From contig JAEUJQ010000001.1 of the NCBI GenBank assembly GCA_016793095.1, positions 124,001-188,000 on the forward strand: DNA of 64,000 nucleotides, written 5' to 3'. This document shows, in pieces, positions 7,934 through 16,939 of this stretch. Positions within the stretch are counted from its first letter, which is position 1; every line of letters starts with the position of its first letter. Origin of the DNA: Myxococcaceae bacterium. Its GTDB lineage: Bacteria; Myxococcota; Myxococcia; Myxococcales; Myxococcaceae. Under the pieces are notes generated by a model. That model did not search any database. It had not been told where the DNA came from and worked only from the letters and a program-made list of their open reading frames with translations. The translations under genes and the position numbers were made by a program.

Positions 7934-9421
7934 ATGGCCGCAGCGAAGAAGAGCATCCCCGTCGACGACAACTGCCCGCTCAAGGGCGCGGCGGTGCACG
8001 AGGACTACGACTGCATCCTCAACCAGACGAACATCGGCGCGAACAACAACAAGTTCTACGTGATCCAGCTGCTCACGAAGGGCGGCAAGTTCTACGCGTG
8101 GACGCGCTGGGGCCGGGTCGGTGAGACGGGGCAGAACGCGCTCGTCGGGCCGACCTCGTTCGAGGGCGCGCTCAAGGTCTTCGAGTCGAAGTTCAAGGAC
8201 AAGACGTCGAACAAGTGGGCCGACCGCGCGAAGTTCAAGCCGGCCGCGGGGCGCTACACCCTGATCGAGGTCGATCGGTCGGCGTCGGCAGACAAGGCCG
8301 AGGAGCTTGAAGAGAAGCTGAAGGACATCGACAAGCAGGCGGCGAAGCTGTCGAGCGCCACCGCGAAGAAGTTCAAGCCCAGCGCCCTGCACCCGCGGGT
8401 GCAGAACTTCATGAACCTGATCTTCGACCACGACATGTTCAAGGGCGCGATGGCGTCGTTCGACATCGACGTGAAGAAGATGCCGCTCGGCCAGCTCTCC
8501 ATGGCCCAGGTGAACCGCGGCTTCGACGTGCTCGAAGATCTGCGCGCCGCGATCAAGGCGAAGAAGCGCGCGAAGATCATGGAGCAGACCTCGCGCTTCT
8601 ACACGGTGATCCCCCACGCGTTCGGCCGCAGCGTGCCGCCGCTGATCGACACCATCGAGCTCGCGGACAAGAAGCAGGAGATGCTCAACGTCCTGTCGGA
8701 CATCGAGCTCGCCATCTCGCTCGAGAAGGCCGATCAGAAGCCGGCGAAGGAAGAGAAGCTGGCGCCCCACCCGGCCGACGAGAACTACAAGAAGCTCAAC
8801 GCCGAGCTCGAGCTCGTGGCGCCCGGCTCAGAGGAGTACGAGCTGCTGCTGCGCTACCTCAACGAGACCGCGTCGTCGTACCGCAAGCCGAAGGTGCTCG
8901 ACATCTTCCGGCTCGATCGCAACGGCGAGGGGGCGCGCTTCAAGGCCCACGACGCGATCAAGCACCGCAAGCTGCTCTGGCACGGCACCAACGTGGCCGT
9001 GGTGGCCGCCATCTGCAAGTCGGGCCTGCGCATCATGCCGCACTCCGGTGGGCGCGTCGGCAAGGGCATCTACACCGCGTCCGAGAACGGGAAGTCGATC
9101 AACTACATGGGCTGGGCGAAGAACCTGGGCGTCATGTTCCTCGCCGAGGTCGCGCTCGGGAAGGAGCACTCGATCACGCGTGACGACTCGTCGCTCAAGG
9201 CGGCGCCGAAGGGCTTCGACAGCGTCGTGGCGCGCGGCCACACCGAGCCCGACCCGAAGAAGGAAGTGGTGCGCAAGTACGACGGCAAAGACGTCATCAT
9301 CCCCAACGGCAAGCCGATCAAGATGAGCCAGTACTCGAAGAGCTCGTTCACCCAGAGCGAGTACCTCGTCTACAAAGAGAGCCAGATCCGCCTGCGCTAC
9401 GCGGTGCACGTACAGAGCTGA
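7934..9421 (+). CDS. Poly(ADP-ribose) polymerase homologue: WGR + regulatory + catalytic domains
   Basis: 495 residues from the ATG at 7934 (GAGGG seven bases upstream). It has the core of eukaryotic PARP1/2. A WGR domain spans about 27-105, with Trp59-Gly-Arg in RWGRVGETGQ. A helical regulatory domain (about 146-270) carries KMPLGQLSMAQV. The catalytic domain runs from about 280 to the end. The ART triad is complete: His350 (LLWHGTN), Tyr380 (GKGIYTAS) and Glu476 (SEYLVYKES). In PARP1 this Glu is needed for chain elongation, so polymer synthesis from NAD+ is predicted. There are no zinc fingers or BRCT domain, so it is organised like PARP2/3. The second PARP gene follows after 12 bases. An ADP-ribosylglycohydrolase and an NAD+ ligase lie within 8 kb. 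PARPs are uncommon in bacteria, so transfer is possible. Confidence 0.93.
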   Translation: MAAAKKSIPVDDNCPLKGAAVHEDYDCILNQTNIGANNNKFYVIQLLTKGGKFYAWTRWGRVGETGQNALVGPTSFEGALKVFESKFKDKTSNKWADRAKFKPAAGRYTLIEVDRSASADKAEELEEKLKDIDKQAAKLSSATAKKFKPSALHPRVQNFMNLIFDHDMFKGAMASFDIDVKKMPLGQLSMAQVNRGFDVLEDLRAAIKAKKRAKIMEQTSRFYTVIPHAFGRSVPPLIDTIELADKKQEMLNVLSDIELAISLEKADQKPAKEEKLAPHPADENYKKLNAELELVAPGSEEYELLLRYLNETASSYRKPKVLDIFRLDRNGEGARFKAHDAIKHRKLLWHGTNVAVVAAICKSGLRIMPHSGGRVGKGIYTASENGKSINYMGWAKNLGVMFLAEVALGKEHSITRDDSSLKAAPKGFDSVVARGHTEPDPKKEVVRKYDGKDVIIPNGKPIKMSQYSKSSFTQSEYLVYKESQIRLRYAVHVQS

Positions 9422-9433
9422 GGAAAGCCCACC

Positions 9434-10885
9434 ATGAGCGTGCTCGAAGAAGTCGTCCTCAACTGGACGGATCTCACCGGCAAGAAGACGGGCGCGACGT
9501 CGCTCGGCTCGAACAAGTTCTACAAGGCCCAGTTGATGAAGGACGGCGCGGCCTTCAAGGTGGTCTTCACCTACGGGCGCGTCGGCCAGGCGGGCCAGAC
9601 GCAGATCGTCAAGGCGCCCACGCTCGAGAAGGCGAAGAAGGAGCTCGAGTCGAAGATCAACTCGAAGATCAAGAAGGGCTACCAGAAGGTCGACCTGCGC
9701 ACGGTCGCCGACGAGGCGAAGAAGGCGGGCGTGAAGGCGGCCCCCGCGAAGAAGGTGGCGCGCAAGTCGTCGGGCTCGTTCCACCCCGAGGTGGAGTCGC
9801 TGCTCGAGCTGCTCTACGGCTCGACAGGGCACGCGGTGGCAGCCGGCCTGTCGGCGTCGTCCGGCGCGACCGATGACGCGCCGCTCGGCAACCTGTCGGA
9901 CAAGCAGATCGACAAGGGCGCCGACCTGCTCGAGGAGATCGAGACGCTGCTCGGCAAGGGCAAGCCGAAGAAGGACGTGCTGCTCGATCTGACGAACGAG
10001 TACCTCTCGGCCATTCCCCGCCGCATCGATCACGCGCGCTCGGGCGGGAAGCTCGACCTCGACAAGATCCTCATCAACAGCGAGGACCGCATCAAGGAGC
10101 AGCGCACGTTCCTCGGCCTGCTGCGCGACGCGTTCCTGCAGAAGGCAGTGTTCGAAGAGGCCGCGCACGTCGCTGACCCGGCGAAGGTCTGGTACGACGG
10201 CCTCAAGTGCGACATCGCGTTCATCGAGCCGAAGAGCGATGAGTACAAGCACATCAAGAAGCTGTTCGACACCGGCCAGTCGCCGATCAACTCGAACTTC
10301 TACGGCAAGCTGAAGCTCGCCCGCGTGTGGAAGCTCGAGCAGCAGGGCCGCAAGCCGGCGTTCGACGCGTACGCCGCGAAGATCGCGAAGGCGAAGGGCG
10401 CGACGGGCGTCATCCCCGGGTGGCACGGCACGCGGACCGAGAACCTCATGGGCATCTGCAAGACGGGGCTGCTCATGCCGAAGAACCTGCCGAAGGGCGT
10501 GCAGGTGACGGGCCGCGCGTTCGGCCTGGGCATCTACCACACGCCCTGCTGGCCCGACTCCGGGGGCTCGACGAAGGACGAGAAGGGCAAGAGCTTCACG
10601 CGCTACAACGGCGCGCTGAAGTCGATGAACTACTCGTCGCTGCGCGGCGCCTTCTACTTCAGGGACAACACCGCCGACCGCGGCTACATGTTCCTCGAGG
10701 AGCTGGCCCTCGGCGTACCCGAGCTTGCGCTCAAGGCGTGCTTCAACAAGCCCTCGCCCGACAAGGGGAAGGACTACATCTACGCGCGCGCGCACGGGCA
10801 CCAGTCGTTGTCGAACGACGAGGTGGTGACGTTCGACGAGCACGCGTCGCGGCGCACGGCGATCGTCGAGGTCGTCTACAAGTAG
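9434..10885 (+). CDS. Second PARP homologue with a variant WGR domain
   Basis: 483 residues, 12 bases after the first PARP gene and so probably in the same operon. The domain order is the same: WGR-like (about 10-80), regulatory (about 112-240, with APLGNLSDKQID) and catalytic (about 255-483). The signature Trp is replaced by Tyr: Tyr47-Gly-Arg in TYGRVGQAGQT. The catalytic triad can still be traced as His331 (GWHGTR), Tyr368 (LGIYHTP) and Glu463 (NDEVVTF), but the region around the Tyr and the end of the domain differ strongly from the first protein (loop CWPDSGGSTKDEKGK). It may bind a different DNA or RNA end, or accept different targets, or act as a partner of the first PARP; these are inferences. 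Paralogous origin by old duplication is likely. Confidence 0.88.
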   Translation: MSVLEEVVLNWTDLTGKKTGATSLGSNKFYKAQLMKDGAAFKVVFTYGRVGQAGQTQIVKAPTLEKAKKELESKINSKIKKGYQKVDLRTVADEAKKAGVKAAPAKKVARKSSGSFHPEVESLLELLYGSTGHAVAAGLSASSGATDDAPLGNLSDKQIDKGADLLEEIETLLGKGKPKKDVLLDLTNEYLSAIPRRIDHARSGGKLDLDKILINSEDRIKEQRTFLGLLRDAFLQKAVFEEAAHVADPAKVWYDGLKCDIAFIEPKSDEYKHIKKLFDTGQSPINSNFYGKLKLARVWKLEQQGRKPAFDAYAAKIAKAKGATGVIPGWHGTRTENLMGICKTGLLMPKNLPKGVQVTGRAFGLGIYHTPCWPDSGGSTKDEKGKSFTRYNGALKSMNYSSLRGAFYFRDNTADRGYMFLEELALGVPELALKACFNKPSPDKGKDYIYARAHGHQSLSNDEVVTFDEHASRRTAIVEVVYK

Positions 10886-11093
10886 ATGGCGGCTCCCCTG
10901 CTCCTGGCTCCAGCCAGTGGCGAGGTCCACTGTCTCCTCAGACAAGAGCAGCGGCGCGACGTGTCGGGCGACGCGACCGCGGCTCGACCGCGCCGCCAGT
11001 TGACGACGGGCTCCGCGAAGTCGCCAGGGACATGAGCGGCTGACCTTCACCTGCGGGCTTGCTCGGCCGCGCGCTTTCCCGTTTGGTCCCGAC

Positions 11094-12131
11094 GTGCACC
11101 CTCGCCTCCCTGTCTTCCTGATGCTCTCGGCGCTCCTGGCCTGCGGCCGAACGGAGCCCGTCCGCTACGACTCCCTGGTGAGCCCGATGGTGCTCGACGC
11201 GGGCCAGGACGCGGGGCGCAGTGACGCCGGCGTAGACGCGGGCGTCGACGCGGGGCCCGTGGACGCCGGCTTCGTGCCCAAGCCCTGCATCAACGGCACC
11301 TTCACGCTCGCGCCGGCTGAGCCGGTGGTGATGATGGTGCTCGATCGCTCGTGCTCGATGGACACGATCTTCGCGAACGGCGTGACGCGCTGGGAAGCGG
11401 TGGTGGCGTCGCTGCGCGCGGTGCTGCCGAGCGTCGATCAACAGATGCAGCTCGGCGGCCTTGCCTACCCGACCAACGAGACGGATCCCTGCAACGTGCC
11501 GACGAGCTCGGGCATCTGGCCGGCGCGTGGAAACGTGCCGCTGCTCCTGTCCAACCTGGCCAGCATTCGACCCACCGGCTCCACGCCGACGACGGACGCG
11601 CTGAAGGTCGCTGGCCAGGTGCTGCGCGGCCGCCGGACCGGGAACGCCGCGCGCGCGATGGTGCTGGCGACCGACGGCCAGCCCACGTGCACCACCAACC
11701 CGCTCGCCGACAGCCTCACCGAGCTGCGCCGGGCCGCGACCGACGGCATCCCGACCTACGTCATCGGCATCGCCGACGACCCGTCGCTGCGGGCCGCGCT
11801 GCAGCAGATGTCCATCGCGGGTTCGCGGCCGAGGCCTGGCATGCAGGGCTTCTACTCAGCGCAGTCTCCGACCGAGCTGCAGCTCGCCTTCTCCACCATC
11901 CGCGATCAGGTCGGAGCCTGCTCCTTCCTGACGAACTCCGTGCCCGACCTGACCGGCACGATCCGGGTGACGTTCGAGGGGGCCGAGGTGCCGTACGACG
12001 AGAGCGGGATGAACGGGTGGAGGTGGACCGATCGGGAGAACGGCGAGCTCACGCTGTTCGGTCCTGTCTGTGCGCGCGCGATCGCGCGGCCCTCGAACCT
12101 GGTCGTCACGGTCCTCTGCGGCGGCCCGTAG
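11094..12131 (+). CDS. VWA-domain lipoprotein
   Basis: 345 residues from a GTG start. The N-terminus is a lipoprotein signal (LMLSALLAC). It is followed by an Asp-Ala-Gly repeat linker (DAGVDAGVDAGPVDAG), a typical myxobacterial surface spacer. A von Willebrand factor A domain fills about 75-275: the metal-binding MIDAS sequence is LDRSCSMD (DxSxS type), with TPTTDAL and LATDGQP later. VWA domains bind proteins through a divalent metal. The C-terminal about 70 residues are beta-rich and unrecognised. No strong ribosome-binding site precedes the GTG. It lies between the PARP pair and the ADP-ribosylglycohydrolase operon without an evident functional link. Confidence 0.8.
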   Translation: MHPRLPVFLMLSALLACGRTEPVRYDSLVSPMVLDAGQDAGRSDAGVDAGVDAGPVDAGFVPKPCINGTFTLAPAEPVVMMVLDRSCSMDTIFANGVTRWEAVVASLRAVLPSVDQQMQLGGLAYPTNETDPCNVPTSSGIWPARGNVPLLLSNLASIRPTGSTPTTDALKVAGQVLRGRRTGNAARAMVLATDGQPTCTTNPLADSLTELRRAATDGIPTYVIGIADDPSLRAALQQMSIAGSRPRPGMQGFYSAQSPTELQLAFSTIRDQVGACSFLTNSVPDLTGTIRVTFEGAEVPYDESGMNGWRWTDRENGELTLFGPVCARAIARPSNLVVTVLCGGP

Positions 12132-12144
12132 AGACGCGAACTGA

Positions 12145-12834
12145 TCAGAACACGACGCCGAGCGAGACCTGCAGCACCTGGAGCGACGACCACTCTGCGT
12201 CAGGGTTCCGCACGTAGCCGAGCGCGAGCGGCACGTCGTTGCTGCGGCGGTAGCCCGAGTCTGGATCAACCCCGTCGAACGATCGCACCTGACAGCGCCC
12301 AGCCAGCGTCGCCGACGTCCCGAAGACGGGGCGCCAACCCGCGTCTCCGAAGGTCGCGGGGATCCGCGTGCCGTTCATTCGGACGAAGACGGGATTGAGC
12401 ATGACGCGTGACGCGGCCGCTCCGACGAAGCCGGCGATCGAGAGCTCGATGCGGTTCGGGAAACGGAACGCCTCGATTCGGCCGCGGCTGAGCACCGACT
12501 CCGAACCCGCGGTCAACACTACGTCATTGAACATGACCTGTGGACCATCGGACGCGACTCTCACCAGCGTGTCCACTCCACTCAGCTCCTTGTTCAACAT
12601 CGACAGGCCGTTGGACCAGTTCACCAATCCCGCGACAACGAGCCGAAGGTGCGGAGCGACGACGACCGCGACCTGCGCCGACGTCCCCAGGTGCTCCACG
12701 AGCAGGCCGTTCACCTGCGGCGCGACGGGCGCGACCGCGACCTCGACCCGCCACGGCCCCTCGACAGGCTGGGACTCCGGATCCGACGCGAGCGCTCGCA
12801 GCGAGACCAGGGTGGCCAGTACCGCCATCCGCAT
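12145..12834 (-). CDS. Putative exported outer-membrane beta-barrel protein
   Basis: 229 residues from the ATG at 12834, which begins a signal peptide (MRMAVLATLVSLRALAS). The mature part has alternating beta-strand patterns and ends in LGVVF with a terminal Phe, as outer-membrane barrels do. There is no catalytic motif. It is convergent with the VWA lipoprotein gene (13 bases apart) and starts 37 bases after the end of the ADP-ribosylglycohydrolase gene on the same strand, so read-through from that operon is possible. The family was not identified. Confidence 0.55.
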   Translation of the reverse strand: MRMAVLATLVSLRALASDPESQPVEGPWRVEVAVAPVAPQVNGLLVEHLGTSAQVAVVVAPHLRLVVAGLVNWSNGLSMLNKELSGVDTLVRVASDGPQVMFNDVVLTAGSESVLSRGRIEAFRFPNRIELSIAGFVGAAASRVMLNPVFVRMNGTRIPATFGDAGWRPVFGTSATLAGRCQVRSFDGVDPDSGYRRSNDVPLALGYVRNPDAEWSSLQVLQVSLGVVF

Positions 12835-12871
12835 GGATCTACTCCACCCGATCCCGCCCCCCTGCAACGGG

Positions 12872-13984
12872 TCAGCCGCGCCCCAGCGCCTGGAACTCCT
12901 TCTCGTGGGCGGTGAGCTGCGCCTCGCGCGAGAGCAACGAGTCCAGCGACTCGGGCGCGGACCGCGTCACCAGCGCGTCGGCCCACGCCCCGAGGCGATC
13001 GTGATCGAGCACCTTCGGCTTCGGAATCCACCCATGCCCGAAGCGCGCGCCCAGCAGGCCGCCGGCGATCGCCGCGACGGTGTCGGTGTCTTCGCCGAGC
13101 CGAACGATGTCGCGCAGCGCGATGAAGGGATCCACGTCGTCACGGAGCGCCATGCCGAGCGCGAAGTGGCCGCCGAGCAGGGCGAACGCGTGGTTCGGGT
13201 GCGCAGGCGGCGCGCCTGGAGCCAGAAAGCCCGCGCCCAGCTCGAGCACCCGCCGGGCGACGTCCATCGGAGCCACCGGCAACGCGCGCAGCAGGGGCCG
13301 CAGCGTGTCCGAGACCTGTCTGCCGCCCGAGCGATCGGCGATCCAGTCGTTGCGCCGGTCGAGCCAGGTCGTCTCCAGCTCCGCCACCGCGTCCGGCAGC
13401 GCCTGCCGCACCTGCGCGGGCGACTCTCCCCGGACCAGGCGCGCCGCCGCGAACGCCACCGCGTGACTCAGCACGATGGCCCGCACGTCTCCGTGGGTCA
13501 CCGCCGCCGACTCACAGGCGACCGCGTCGAGCCGTGTCGCGTCGTCGTGGAACAGCGCTCCCAGCACCGCCGTGCGCATCGCCGCGCCGATGCCGGCAGA
13601 CGGACTGCCGGTGCTCCGCGCAGGTCCACCGTCTTCCAGCCTCGTCACGGCGTTCTCGAACTGCTTCCCGGTGCCACGCCAGGCCTTCAGCGCGCGCCCG
13701 CGCACGAGCGCCCTGCCCCACGCCTCTGGTGAGAACCCGCCCTCACCGAGACACACCGCGAGCAGCGTCACCGCCTGCTGCGTGTCGTCGGTGTGCAGCC
13801 CCTGCGGGCGCAGGCGCCGGCGCCGCGACATCTTCACCTGCGCGTAGCTCTCCGGCAGCGCCTCGTAGGCCCCGAAGGTGGTGGCGATCTCGTCGGCGCT
13901 CCAGCTCTCGATCGGCGCGCCGAAGACGTCGCCCCACGCGAGGCCCCACAGACACCCGCGCGCGCGATCGTCGCGGCTCGTCAC
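12872..13984 (-). CDS. ADP-ribosylglycohydrolase (DraG/ARH3 family)
   Basis: 370 residues from a GTG start, directly after the stop of the preceding 89-residue gene. The family removes ADP-ribose from proteins, or degrades poly(ADP-ribose) as ARH3 does, using two Mg ions. Metal-binding motifs are in place: GLAWGDVFGAP at about 14-24, HTDDT with Asp66 and Asp67, VTHGD at 162-166, and the C-terminal GEDTDTVAAIAGGLLGA with Asp299 and Asp301. Length fits the family (about 300-370). It is the last of three genes on the minus strand and faces away from the DNA ligase. With two PARPs 2-6 kb away it is the natural candidate for an eraser of their modification; this pairing is inferred from proximity and known chemistry. 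Confidence 0.9.
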   Translation of the reverse strand: MTSRDDRARGCLWGLAWGDVFGAPIESWSADEIATTFGAYEALPESYAQVKMSRRRRLRPQGLHTDDTQQAVTLLAVCLGEGGFSPEAWGRALVRGRALKAWRGTGKQFENAVTRLEDGGPARSTGSPSAGIGAAMRTAVLGALFHDDATRLDAVACESAAVTHGDVRAIVLSHAVAFAAARLVRGESPAQVRQALPDAVAELETTWLDRRNDWIADRSGGRQVSDTLRPLLRALPVAPMDVARRVLELGAGFLAPGAPPAHPNHAFALLGGHFALGMALRDDVDPFIALRDIVRLGEDTDTVAAIAGGLLGARFGHGWIPKPKVLDHDRLGAWADALVTRSAPESLDSLLSREAQLTAHEKEFQALGRG

Positions 13985-14254
13985 TCAGCGCTCCAGCCGG
14001 CGCGTCTTCAGATCGAACCACGCCACCGAGCCGTCCTCGAAGCGCAGCGGCACCCGGTCTCCCTCCACCTGCCCCACCGTGCCGTGCTTCGTCGCCTCGG
14101 TCCGCAGGCTCCCGTTCTCGAGGAACGCCTCCCGCACGCTCACGCGCCCGCCGTCCTGCCTGATGTCGATGACCGTCGCGCACCAGCCCTGCGCGTCCTT
14201 GTCGAAGAAGCCATCGACCTCGTACAGCTCGGTGACGACGGGCTCCAAAGCCAT
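13985..14254 (-). CDS. Small protein of unknown function in the ADP-ribosylglycohydrolase operon
   Basis: 89 residues. The ATG at 14254 shares one base with the stop of the upstream gene (TGATG), and the stop abuts the GTG of the glycohydrolase gene, so the three genes are translationally linked. The sequence is beta-rich and acidic-basic mixed (for example VDGFFDKDAQGWCATVIDI and FEDGSVAWFDLKTRRLER), suggesting a small SH3-like or Tudor-like barrel, but no family is recognised. There is no signal peptide or membrane segment. The tight coupling suggests a partner or regulator of the glycohydrolase. Confidence 0.65.
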   Translation of the reverse strand: MALEPVVTELYEVDGFFDKDAQGWCATVIDIRQDGGRVSVREAFLENGSLRTEATKHGTVGQVEGDRVPLRFEDGSVAWFDLKTRRLER

Positions 14255-14967
14255 CACATCACCGGGTACGGGATGCAGCCGTTGAGATCGAACGACGGCG
14301 CCGCCGTGGTGGTCGCGCTGACGACGACGCACTCGCTCTCGACGCGCGCCACGAGCTGCACGCCCTTCGGGAAGACGCCGACCGTCTCCTCCGAGAGGTG
14401 CAGCAGGTCCGGGTGCTCGAAGCTCACCAGCTCTCCGTCTTCGGCCTCTTCGACCTCGGAGTCCTCGGCGAAGATCTTCACGAGCGGCGGGTCCTCGGTC
14501 ACCACCACGAGCACCTCGTCGCCGTCGAGCCCCGCGTTCGAGAGCAGCCGCCGCGACACGCGTCCGCGCCCGTCCTGGCCGACCGGCACCGAGGCGCTCA
14601 CGGTCTCGTCCTGGATCTGCGCGTCGGTCACCTTCTTGTCGGCCCCCTTCTTCGGCGGCCGGGCGAGCTGCGAGCGCATCTTCTCGTCGTAGAGATCCGG
14701 CGACTGGGTCGGCAGGTGGTACAGCAGCGCCTGCACCGTCTTGCCCTGCGCGTTCACGTCGATCTGCGTCGTCTCGTACGGCCCCAGCGCGCCGCGATCG
14801 AACGCCTGACGCACGAGCGGCGACACGTCGCGGTGGCGGATGTCGGGCAGCGACTCCTTGACGGCGTTGCTGACGTCGAGCGCGGTGAACAGCATCGCGC
14901 TCGCGGTGAACCGATCGAGCACGCGCGCGGTGACGGCTTCCATCTCTTCCCGGGTGGACTCAGCCAT
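14254..14967 (-). CDS. Unrecognised cytoplasmic protein, first gene of the ADP-ribosylglycohydrolase operon
   Basis: 237 residues from the ATG at 14967, chosen because GGAGGGG lies just upstream. The first about 75 residues look helical with a possible winged-helix pattern (FTALDVSNAVKES, RHRDVSPLVRQAF). The middle is beta-rich (VSASVPVGQDGRGRVSR, EVLVVVTEDPPLVKIF). An acidic run, EDSEVEEAEDGE, follows and the end is beta-rich. There is no signal peptide. It is divergent from the DNA ligase with about 70 bases between, so both could share a regulatory region. A DNA-binding or regulatory role is possible but not demonstrated. I know no family for it. Confidence 0.65.
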   Translation of the reverse strand: MAESTREEMEAVTARVLDRFTASAMLFTALDVSNAVKESLPDIRHRDVSPLVRQAFDRGALGPYETTQIDVNAQGKTVQALLYHLPTQSPDLYDEKMRSQLARPPKKGADKKVTDAQIQDETVSASVPVGQDGRGRVSRRLLSNAGLDGDEVLVVVTEDPPLVKIFAEDSEVEEAEDGELVSFEHPDLLHLSEETVGVFPKGVQLVARVESECVVVSATTTAAPSFDLNGCIPYPVM

Positions 14968-15037
14968 AGGACCCCTCCCCTGCGGTTGACGGCAGATGGT
15001 GCTTGTAGCGGGTTTGCCCGGCCCCGAGAATGCGCGC

Positions 15038-16939
15038 GTGAAAAAGCCCAACGTCACGAAGCTGGTCGCCGATCTGCAGCGCTACAAGGACGCGTACTAC
15101 AACGGGGCTCCGCTCATCTCGGACGCCGCCTACGACGCGCTGGAAGATCAACTGCGAGAGCTCGACCCGAAGCACCCGTTCTTCGGCTCCGTCGGCGCGC
15201 CCGTGCGCAGCGTCACCGAGTGGGAGAAGGCCCGGCACGCGATCCCCATGGGCTCGCTCAACAAGGCCGTCTCGGAAGACGAGTTCCGCAAGTGGGCGGC
15301 GCGCTGTGACGAGCTGGCGGCGCAGCAGAAGCTCACGCCGATCTCGAGGAACCTCTTCGTCACCGAGAAGCTCGACGGCCTGTCGTTGGCGGTGACGTAC
15401 GAGCGCGGCGTGCTCAAGGAGGCCATCACCCGCGGCGACGGCCAGGTCGGCGAGCGCATCACGCCCAACGCGGCGCGCATGAAGGGCGTGCCCGGCAAGC
15501 TGAAGAAGGCGCTGACGCTCACCGTGCGCGGCGAGATCATCTTGAAGCTGTCGGACATGAAGAAGGCCTTCCCCGGCGCCGCCAACCCCCGCAACCAGGC
15601 GGCCGGCACGAGCAAGCGCTTCGACGGCCAGGGCTGCGAGCACCTCACCGTGCTGTTTTACGATCTCGACGGCATCGACCATGAGACCGAGGAGGAGAAG
15701 TTCGAGATCCTGCAGGACTTCTCGTTCCTGACGCCGTTTCAGCTCGCGACCGATCTCGACGGCGCGATCGCCGAGCACAAGGCGTACGCGAAGAAGAAGC
15801 GCGCGGCGCTCGACTACGAGATCGACGGGCTCGTGATGCGGGCCAACGACGTGCACGTGCACACGATGCTGGGCGAGGTGAACAACCGGCCGCGCGGCTC
15901 GGTGGCCTACAAGTTCGCGTCGCAGGCCCAGGTGACGAAGGTCGTCGACATCATCTGGGACACGGGGTCGTCGGGGCGCGTGTCTCCGGTCGCCGTGGTC
16001 GCGCCGGTGGTGCTCGCGGGCGCCACCGTGCAGCGCGCGTCGCTGGCGAACGCCTCGAGGGTCGCCGAGCTCGACATCGGCGTCGGCGACGACGTGCTCG
16101 TGTCGAGGCGCAACGACGTCATCCCCTACGTCGAGGAGGTCGTCGTCAAGCGCGGGCCCACCGCGAAGCCGCCGAAGAGGTGCGTCGTCTGCAAGGCGCC
16201 GCTCGAGAAGTCGGGCGAGTACCTGTCGTGCCGCAACGACGCGTGCCGCGCGATCATCGAGGGCCGCATCCAGAACTGGGTGGACGCGCAGGGCATCCTC
16301 GAGTGGGGCGAGACGCTCATCGCGCAGCTCGTCGAGGCGAAGCTCGTGAAGGAGCCCGCCGATCTCTACCGCCTGAAGCCCGAGGACATCGCCAAGCTCG
16401 ATCGCAAGGGCCTCGTCATCGCGAACAAGGTGCTGGGGAACCTCAAGGCGCAGCTGCCGCTGTCGCTGCCGAAGTTCCTGGCGTCGCTGGGCATCGAGAA
16501 CTTCGGCGCGCAGACCGCGAAGGCGGTGGTGGCGGGCGGCTTCGACTCGCTCGACAAGGTGCGCAAGGCGTCGCTCGCCGAGCTGTCGGCGCTCCCGGGC
16601 GTCGGGCCGGCCAAGGGGAAGGCGGCGTTCGACGGCCTCAAGAAGCGGTCGAAGGAGATCGATCGGCTGCTCAAGGTGGGCGTGGTGCCGGTGACGAAGA
16701 AGGCCGCTGGCCCGCTCGCGGGGAAGAGCTTCTGCTTCACCGGCGCGCTGTCGAAGCCGCGGAAGGTGTACGAGCAGATGGTCGAGGACAACGGCGGCAC
16801 GCTGCTGGCGGGCGTGACGAAGGACCTCCACTTCCTCGTCATGGAGGACCCGAACTCGGGCTCGAGCAAGGCGCAGAAGGCCGCGAAGTACGGCACGAAG
16901 TGCATCGACGAGAAGGCGTTCGTCAAGATGGTGAGCTGA
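15038..16939 (+). CDS. ligA: NAD+-dependent DNA ligase (LigA-type, divergent)
   Basis: 633 residues if read from the GTG at 15038; an in-frame ATG at 14996 adds 14 residues with no similarity to ligases. It has the full LigA order. Domain Ia is YYNGAPLISDAAYDAL. The adenylation domain has Lys111 in EKLDGLS (canonical LigA reads KxDGLA), then LTVRGEI, YEIDGLVMRAND and VAYKFAS. An OB fold (GRVSPVAVVAPV) follows, then a Cys4 zinc finger (Cys382, 385, 398, 403), helix-hairpin-helix repeats, and a BRCT domain from about 563 (GKSFCFTGALSKPRKVYE). It seals nicks using NAD+ and releases AMP and NMN. Several motifs deviate from housekeeping LigA, so it may be a second, specialised ligase. It is divergent from the ADP-ribosylglycohydrolase operon and followed after 8 bases by a TPR/HExxH gene. 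Confidence 0.93.
   Translation: MKKPNVTKLVADLQRYKDAYYNGAPLISDAAYDALEDQLRELDPKHPFFGSVGAPVRSVTEWEKARHAIPMGSLNKAVSEDEFRKWAARCDELAAQQKLTPISRNLFVTEKLDGLSLAVTYERGVLKEAITRGDGQVGERITPNAARMKGVPGKLKKALTLTVRGEIILKLSDMKKAFPGAANPRNQAAGTSKRFDGQGCEHLTVLFYDLDGIDHETEEEKFEILQDFSFLTPFQLATDLDGAIAEHKAYAKKKRAALDYEIDGLVMRANDVHVHTMLGEVNNRPRGSVAYKFASQAQVTKVVDIIWDTGSSGRVSPVAVVAPVVLAGATVQRASLANASRVAELDIGVGDDVLVSRRNDVIPYVEEVVVKRGPTAKPPKRCVVCKAPLEKSGEYLSCRNDACRAIIEGRIQNWVDAQGILEWGETLIAQLVEAKLVKEPADLYRLKPEDIAKLDRKGLVIANKVLGNLKAQLPLSLPKFLASLGIENFGAQTAKAVVAGGFDSLDKVRKASLAELSALPGVGPAKGKAAFDGLKKRSKEIDRLLKVGVVPVTKKAAGPLAGKSFCFTGALSKPRKVYEQMVEDNGGTLLAGVTKDLHFLVMEDPNSGSSKAQKAAKYGTKCIDEKAFVKMVS

Follow-up and report, generated by a model that had tools for sequence, protein, structure and literature searches.

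The function of PARPs in bacteria is treated as an open question in PMC4245714, and one locus of a Myxococcaceae bacterium raises it in a particular form: do two PARPs, an ADP-ribosylglycohydrolase and an NAD+-dependent DNA ligase that are encoded within a few kilobases belong to a single system, and what might such a system do? The locus occupies positions 7934-16939 of the window, by which we mean the whole 64-kb stretch of DNA that was analysed, on contig G000:C85 of an 8.8-Mb draft genome. Here Pfam identifies two intact WGR–PRD–PARP proteins (PARP1 and PARP2), the glycohydrolase (ARH) and a divergent NAD+ DNA ligase (LIG2), the second in the genome. All four genes had been named in a preliminary description, which overlooked a fifth gene, X (14254-14967, reverse strand), an 89-aa ORF, the status of the ligase as a second copy and a connection to phages. 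We consider the five genes, PARP1, PARP2, ARH, X and LIG2, to be probably a real functional unit and not a chance grouping. The cluster offers a defined protein set for testing PARP-based DNA-break signalling in bacteria and phages, and it is relevant to the exchange of PARPs and ligases among phages, bacteria and eukaryotes.

Genes of the cluster

PARP1 (7934-9421, forward strand, 495 aa) and PARP2 (9434-10885, forward strand, 483 aa) are adjacent to each other, the PARP2 start lying 12 bp behind PARP1, and are the only PF00644 proteins in the genome. The WGR, PARP_reg and PARP catalytic domains were all matched by Pfam in both proteins. The catalytic triads that had been assigned to them, H350/Y380/E476 in PARP1 and H331/Y368/E463 in PARP2, were confirmed and are kept in the copies found in a second genome, G043 (see below); across 12 PARP2 homologues the H-Y-E triad is invariant. 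Judged by sequence, PARP1 is PARP3-like, nearer to human PARP3 than to human PARP1 or PARP2. Its catalytic region scores 373-378 bits against human PARP3, 205 against PARP1 and about 155 against PARP2, the identity with PARP3 in this region is 52% over 341 aa, and its D-loop, RIMPHSGGRVGKGIY, is the same as that of human PARP3. PARP2 of the window is a divergent PARP1/2-like form; an AlphaFold model of it was set aside as too poor (pLDDT 49). The GC content of the window has its minimum at 8001-10000, over both PARP genes (0.641 vs about 0.70).

The WGR-PARPs of Herpetosiphon and Clostridioides difficile, as presented in PMC4245714 and PMC5966428, resemble the window PARPs in their WGR-PARP_reg-catalytic architecture and H-Y-E triad. 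They are described there as scattered, whereas PARP1 of the window is PARP3-like and carries the PARP3 D-loop. A word search of the available text of the two papers returned no discussion of operons or of a ligase.

ARH (12872-13984, reverse strand, 370 aa) matches PF03747 with 169 bits, contains both of the Asp-rich motifs attributed to it earlier (HTDDT and GEDTDT) and resembles the structures of ARH3 and DraG. There are five ARH-family proteins in the genome, so the presence of ARH alone means little, and its substrates could be small ADP-ribose compounds and not PARP products. The 89-aa ORF (13985-14254, reverse strand) lies between X and ARH, with its start abutting the X stop and its stop abutting the ARH start, and is apparently in one transcription unit with them. 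It is present in the window only, with no homologue in the fetched loci of other genomes. A VWA lipoprotein gene (11094-12131, forward strand; Pfam VWA) and an uncharacterised membrane-type gene (12145-12867, reverse strand; no Pfam match) do lie between the cluster genes, as had been described. Both are missing from the G043 cluster, and they are probably not cluster members.

X (237 aa) is located upstream of ARH and is divergent from LIG2. The AF2 model of X is of moderate confidence (pLDDT 74.5, pTM 0.42). It contains a Fur-like winged helix (VIA Z 8.2 over 68 residues) and an MraZ-like C-terminal half (VIA Z 8.6 over 97 residues), both Z values being close to those that common folds can attain. 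One X homologue matches PF04014 MazE_antitoxin at 3e-5. With two predicted DNA-binding folds, a winged helix and an MraZ/AbrB-like tandem domain, X is probably a DNA-binding regulator. The divergent intergenic region between X and LIG2 (14968-15037), delimited by sequence comparison with G043, is a candidate shared control region; inspection of the cluster by eye recognised no DNA-damage (LexA-like) operator.

LIG2 (14996-16939, forward strand, 647 aa) had been described as a BRCT-containing NAD+-dependent ligase, and the Pfam adenylation, OB, HHH and BRCT domains agree with this. It scores 463 bits with TIGR00575, for which the curated cut-off is 444, and 152 bits with PF01653, where the housekeeping LigA (G000:C49) reaches 318 bits. 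Comparison with G043 gives two alternative starts, ATG 14996 and a conserved GTG at 15038, and the GTG may be the one used. The catalytic residues, including the KxDG lysine, and the four zinc Cys are kept; in motif IV, R replaces K, as it does in 7 of the 27 other LigAs compared. LIG2 therefore shares the full domain set and catalytic residues of LigA and differs in being a second copy from a separate, phage-associated clade. In the ligase tree it forms a 100/100 clade with the ligases of large uncultured viral contigs, apart from the bacterial LigAs, and this separate position rules out a recent duplicate of the housekeeping LigA. Among the genomes examined, only two bacterial ones have a LIG2-type ligase. 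Another viral-contig ligase (L173:7986-9884) is 39% identical to LIG2, sits on a long tree branch and has no PARP nearby.

Recurrence of the five genes

PARPs were found in only 3 of the 144 relatives. One of these, the Archangium-like MAG G043, is of another genus and carries the whole set (locus L055). Its ligase, X, ARH, PARP2 and PARP1 genes keep the order and orientations that they have relative to one another in the window, and neither the VWA nor the membrane-type gene lies among them. The identities between the two copies are 79% for PARP1, 79% for PARP2, 80-81% for LIG2, 62% for X and 55% for ARH, and dN is lower than dS for all five genes, most clearly for PARP1, PARP2 and LIG2. The comparison of neighbourhoods in relatives that had been proposed as a check thus turned out positive: PARP1, PARP2, ARH and the ligase are together in G043, and ARH, ligase and PARP, with a ligase of another lineage, are together in a further genome, G184.

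The flanking genes of the 64-kb window have no homologous match in the fetched flanks of G043, and LIG2 (81%) shows a higher identity between the two genomes than the housekeeping LigA does (73%). Taken together, these sequence comparisons suggest that the block has moved laterally. When an empty site was searched for with the right-flank gene, mostly distant homologues (29-49%) were returned, none in the same genus, and no empty site was found among them.

The full five-gene set has been seen in just two genomes. The scan of genome contigs for bacterial PARPs, in which PARP2 was the sole query, yielded 12 loci with PARP2 homologues, labelled Myxococcota for the most part. At the remaining PARP2 loci there is no LIG2, PARP1 or ARH nearby, and their genomes have no LIG2. 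The PARP of G079 was rejected as a cluster relative, its context being unrelated. X and PARP2 co-occur: X is present in 3 of 195 genomes of the phylum, exactly the three with PARP2; if three genomes were drawn at random, ancestry being ignored, such an overlap would have a chance of one in 1.2 million. X is also present in 12 of the 13 PARP2 genomes, including four where it is on another contig, and is adjacent or close to PARP2 in 7 of 12 PARP2 loci. No match to X was found in plasmids.

Related gene sets in retron islands and viral contigs

In G184, another myxobacterium (L051/L053), genes for a PARP4-like PARP (165 bits vs human PARP4), a macro domain, HEAT, SWIM and RT proteins are followed by an ARH-LigA fusion of 1058 aa (L053:2029-5205), which includes a full-length LigA; the genome has another LigA. 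The same island is found in G194 (L052) with ARH unfused. There, the nearness of ARH to a ligase was not accepted as a meaningful link, the ligase being the only LigA of the genome and its position possibly due to chance. The HEAT and SWIM proteins and the G194 RT match type XIII retron models, and the G184 RT is 54% identical to the G194 RT. G187 has an ARH and a related ligase, each of which extends to a contig end, an arrangement that would be consistent with an ARH-ligase fusion as in G184. G186 (L050) has PARP and macro genes only.

The ARH-fusion ligase and LIG2 cannot be taken as one lineage, since they fall in different clades of the ligase tree. The ARH-ligase links are therefore independent: ARH and PARP have become linked to ligases of two distinct lineages. 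The type XIII retron island of G184 and G194 resembles the window cluster in combining a PARP with ADP-ribose erasers and, in G184, in fusing a ligase to ARH; it differs in having RT, SWIM and HEAT genes and a ligase of the other clade, which the window cluster lacks. The RT, SWIM and HEAT models have no match among the five window cluster proteins, where a marginal WGR-domain match was the only one obtained.

Viral loci were found with both X and LIG2 as queries, while the viral-contig scans with PARP1 and PARP2 gave no matches. The phage status of these contigs is that of the IMG/VR classification. X retrieved 30 IMG/VR loci, among which two pairs are near-identical. In 29 of the 30, a PARP sequence, in some cases edge-cut or fragmentary, is located upstream of X; the thirtieth contig ends too near X to show one. 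Macro-like genes, so labelled from a sequence motif and without a Pfam match, are present in 26 of the 30 X loci, NADAR genes in about 21 and a LIG2-type ligase sequence in 11, where it lies at the edge of the fetched 8-kb flank. Across L143-L172 there is a conserved gene order of ligase, metallophosphoesterase, PARP, macro-like, NADAR, X and SLOG. Of the two halves of X, only the one with the winged helix is matched by the viral X proteins. The viral PARPs have PARP2 as their best match, with no resolution between the two in the PARP tree. Phage X had no match in INPHARED. L143, L145, L152 and L153 contain a second, PARP4-like PARP at 4-8 kb downstream of X. These sequences are incomplete, either as fragments or because the fetched stretch ends within them, and match the G184 PARP at 49-67% over partial stretches.

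According to a review of viral NAD+-ADPr systems, large phages carry PARP, macro, NADAR, SLOG and NAD+ ligase genes; its relevant passages contain no description of X or of a PARP-ligase-X module (PMC9503650). The viral contigs found here share PARP, macro, NADAR and SLOG with the neighbourhoods covered in those passages and add a LIG2-type ligase and X. The window, in contrast, has ARH in place of macro and NADAR, plus a PARP3-like enzyme; Pfam found no macro or NADAR gene among the window cluster proteins scanned. A search of the open-access literature found no paper on a PARP with ARH and an NAD+ ligase, nor on a PARP with WGR, SWIM and macro operons.

Possible role of the cluster

The five genes are co-inherited, and their active-site residues are intact. 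We give an even chance to the proposal that they form a laterally moved ADP-ribosylation module that reacts to broken DNA and has in common with large phages the ligase, a WGR-PARP and, of its regulator, the winged helix. In such a module, the WGR domains of the PARP3-like PARP1 and of PARP2 would recognise DNA ends or nicks, which would switch the enzymes on. The PARPs would then move ADP-ribose from NAD+ onto themselves, nearby proteins or DNA ends; PARP1 would probably add single ADP-ribose units, and PARP2 might extend them. LIG2 would seal the break, removal of ADP-ribose by ARH would reset the system, and X would control the divergent X-ARH and LIG2 promoters. As to the role, our analysis favours the repair or tolerance of breaks, with phage defence as the main alternative.

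The preliminary description had drawn an analogy with eukaryotic repair, in which Lig3 seals the break. The analogy holds for the arrangement and fails for the type of enzyme, LIG2 being an NAD+ LigA-type ligase of the phage clade and not an ATP-dependent one like Lig3. Another parallel is with human PARP3, a DNA ligase and ARH3, as the window likewise has a PARP3-like PARP1, a ligase and an ARH-type eraser. It departs from the human system in the NAD+ dependence of its ligase and in the added second PARP and X, and no counterparts of XRCC1, APLF or HPF1 were seen in the cluster. Human PARP3 ADP-ribosylates DNA ends, and several ATP-dependent ligases seal 5'-ADP-ribosylated DNA, although the ligases listed for this substrate include no NAD+-dependent one (PMC5843604). 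DNA-ADPr is removed by ARH3 and others, and no modification was found at internal nick phosphates (PMC5725667); on PARP3 modification of internal nick or gap phosphates the two papers differ. A more far-reaching version of our proposal is possible but doubtful: the cluster could be a mobile, self-contained bacterial counterpart of eukaryotic PARP signalling, where PARP3- and PARP1/2-type enzymes would mark the break, a phage-type ligase would seal it, perhaps acting directly on ADP-ribosylated 5' ends, ARH would erase the mark and a dedicated regulator would be in control.

Anti-phage defence has to be taken seriously as a rival, given how sporadically the genes are distributed and the retron and phage settings of related sets, even if we hold it to be rather unlikely. 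The DNA ends of invading or replicating phages would activate the PARPs, resulting in DNA or protein modification or in NAD+ depletion, while ARH would limit self-damage, LIG2 would repair the host and X would repress the cluster. Movement as a block, the other PARP-macro-ARH sets adjoining type XIII retron genes and the related modules in large viral contigs would all fit this. However, PADLOC models give the five proteins weak or domain-level matches at most, the genes called on either side of the window cluster do not resemble a defence island, and a BRCT ligase would be an unusual defence part. X and the link to phages make defence or counter-defence an equally possible function.

It is improbable, in our judgement, that the cluster is domesticated phage cargo for host takeover or counter-defence, in which the ligase, PARP and X would have come from a jumbo-phage module and would now serve in generic replication or nick sealing, with PARP1 and ARH added later. 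The 100/100 grouping of LIG2 with viral ligases and the X and PARP neighbours in viral contigs point this way, but the link between PARP2 and the phage PARPs is left without resolution by the PARP tree, and no counterpart of PARP1 and ARH was seen in the phage module. Least probable by far is the chance proximity of unrelated genes, which the preliminary description had allowed for and with which the intervening VWA and membrane-type genes, the two transcription directions and the five ARH-family proteins of the genome would agree: we reject it because the same set recurs in G043 at a non-homologous site without the intervening genes, and the co-occurrence of X and PARP2 also speaks against it.
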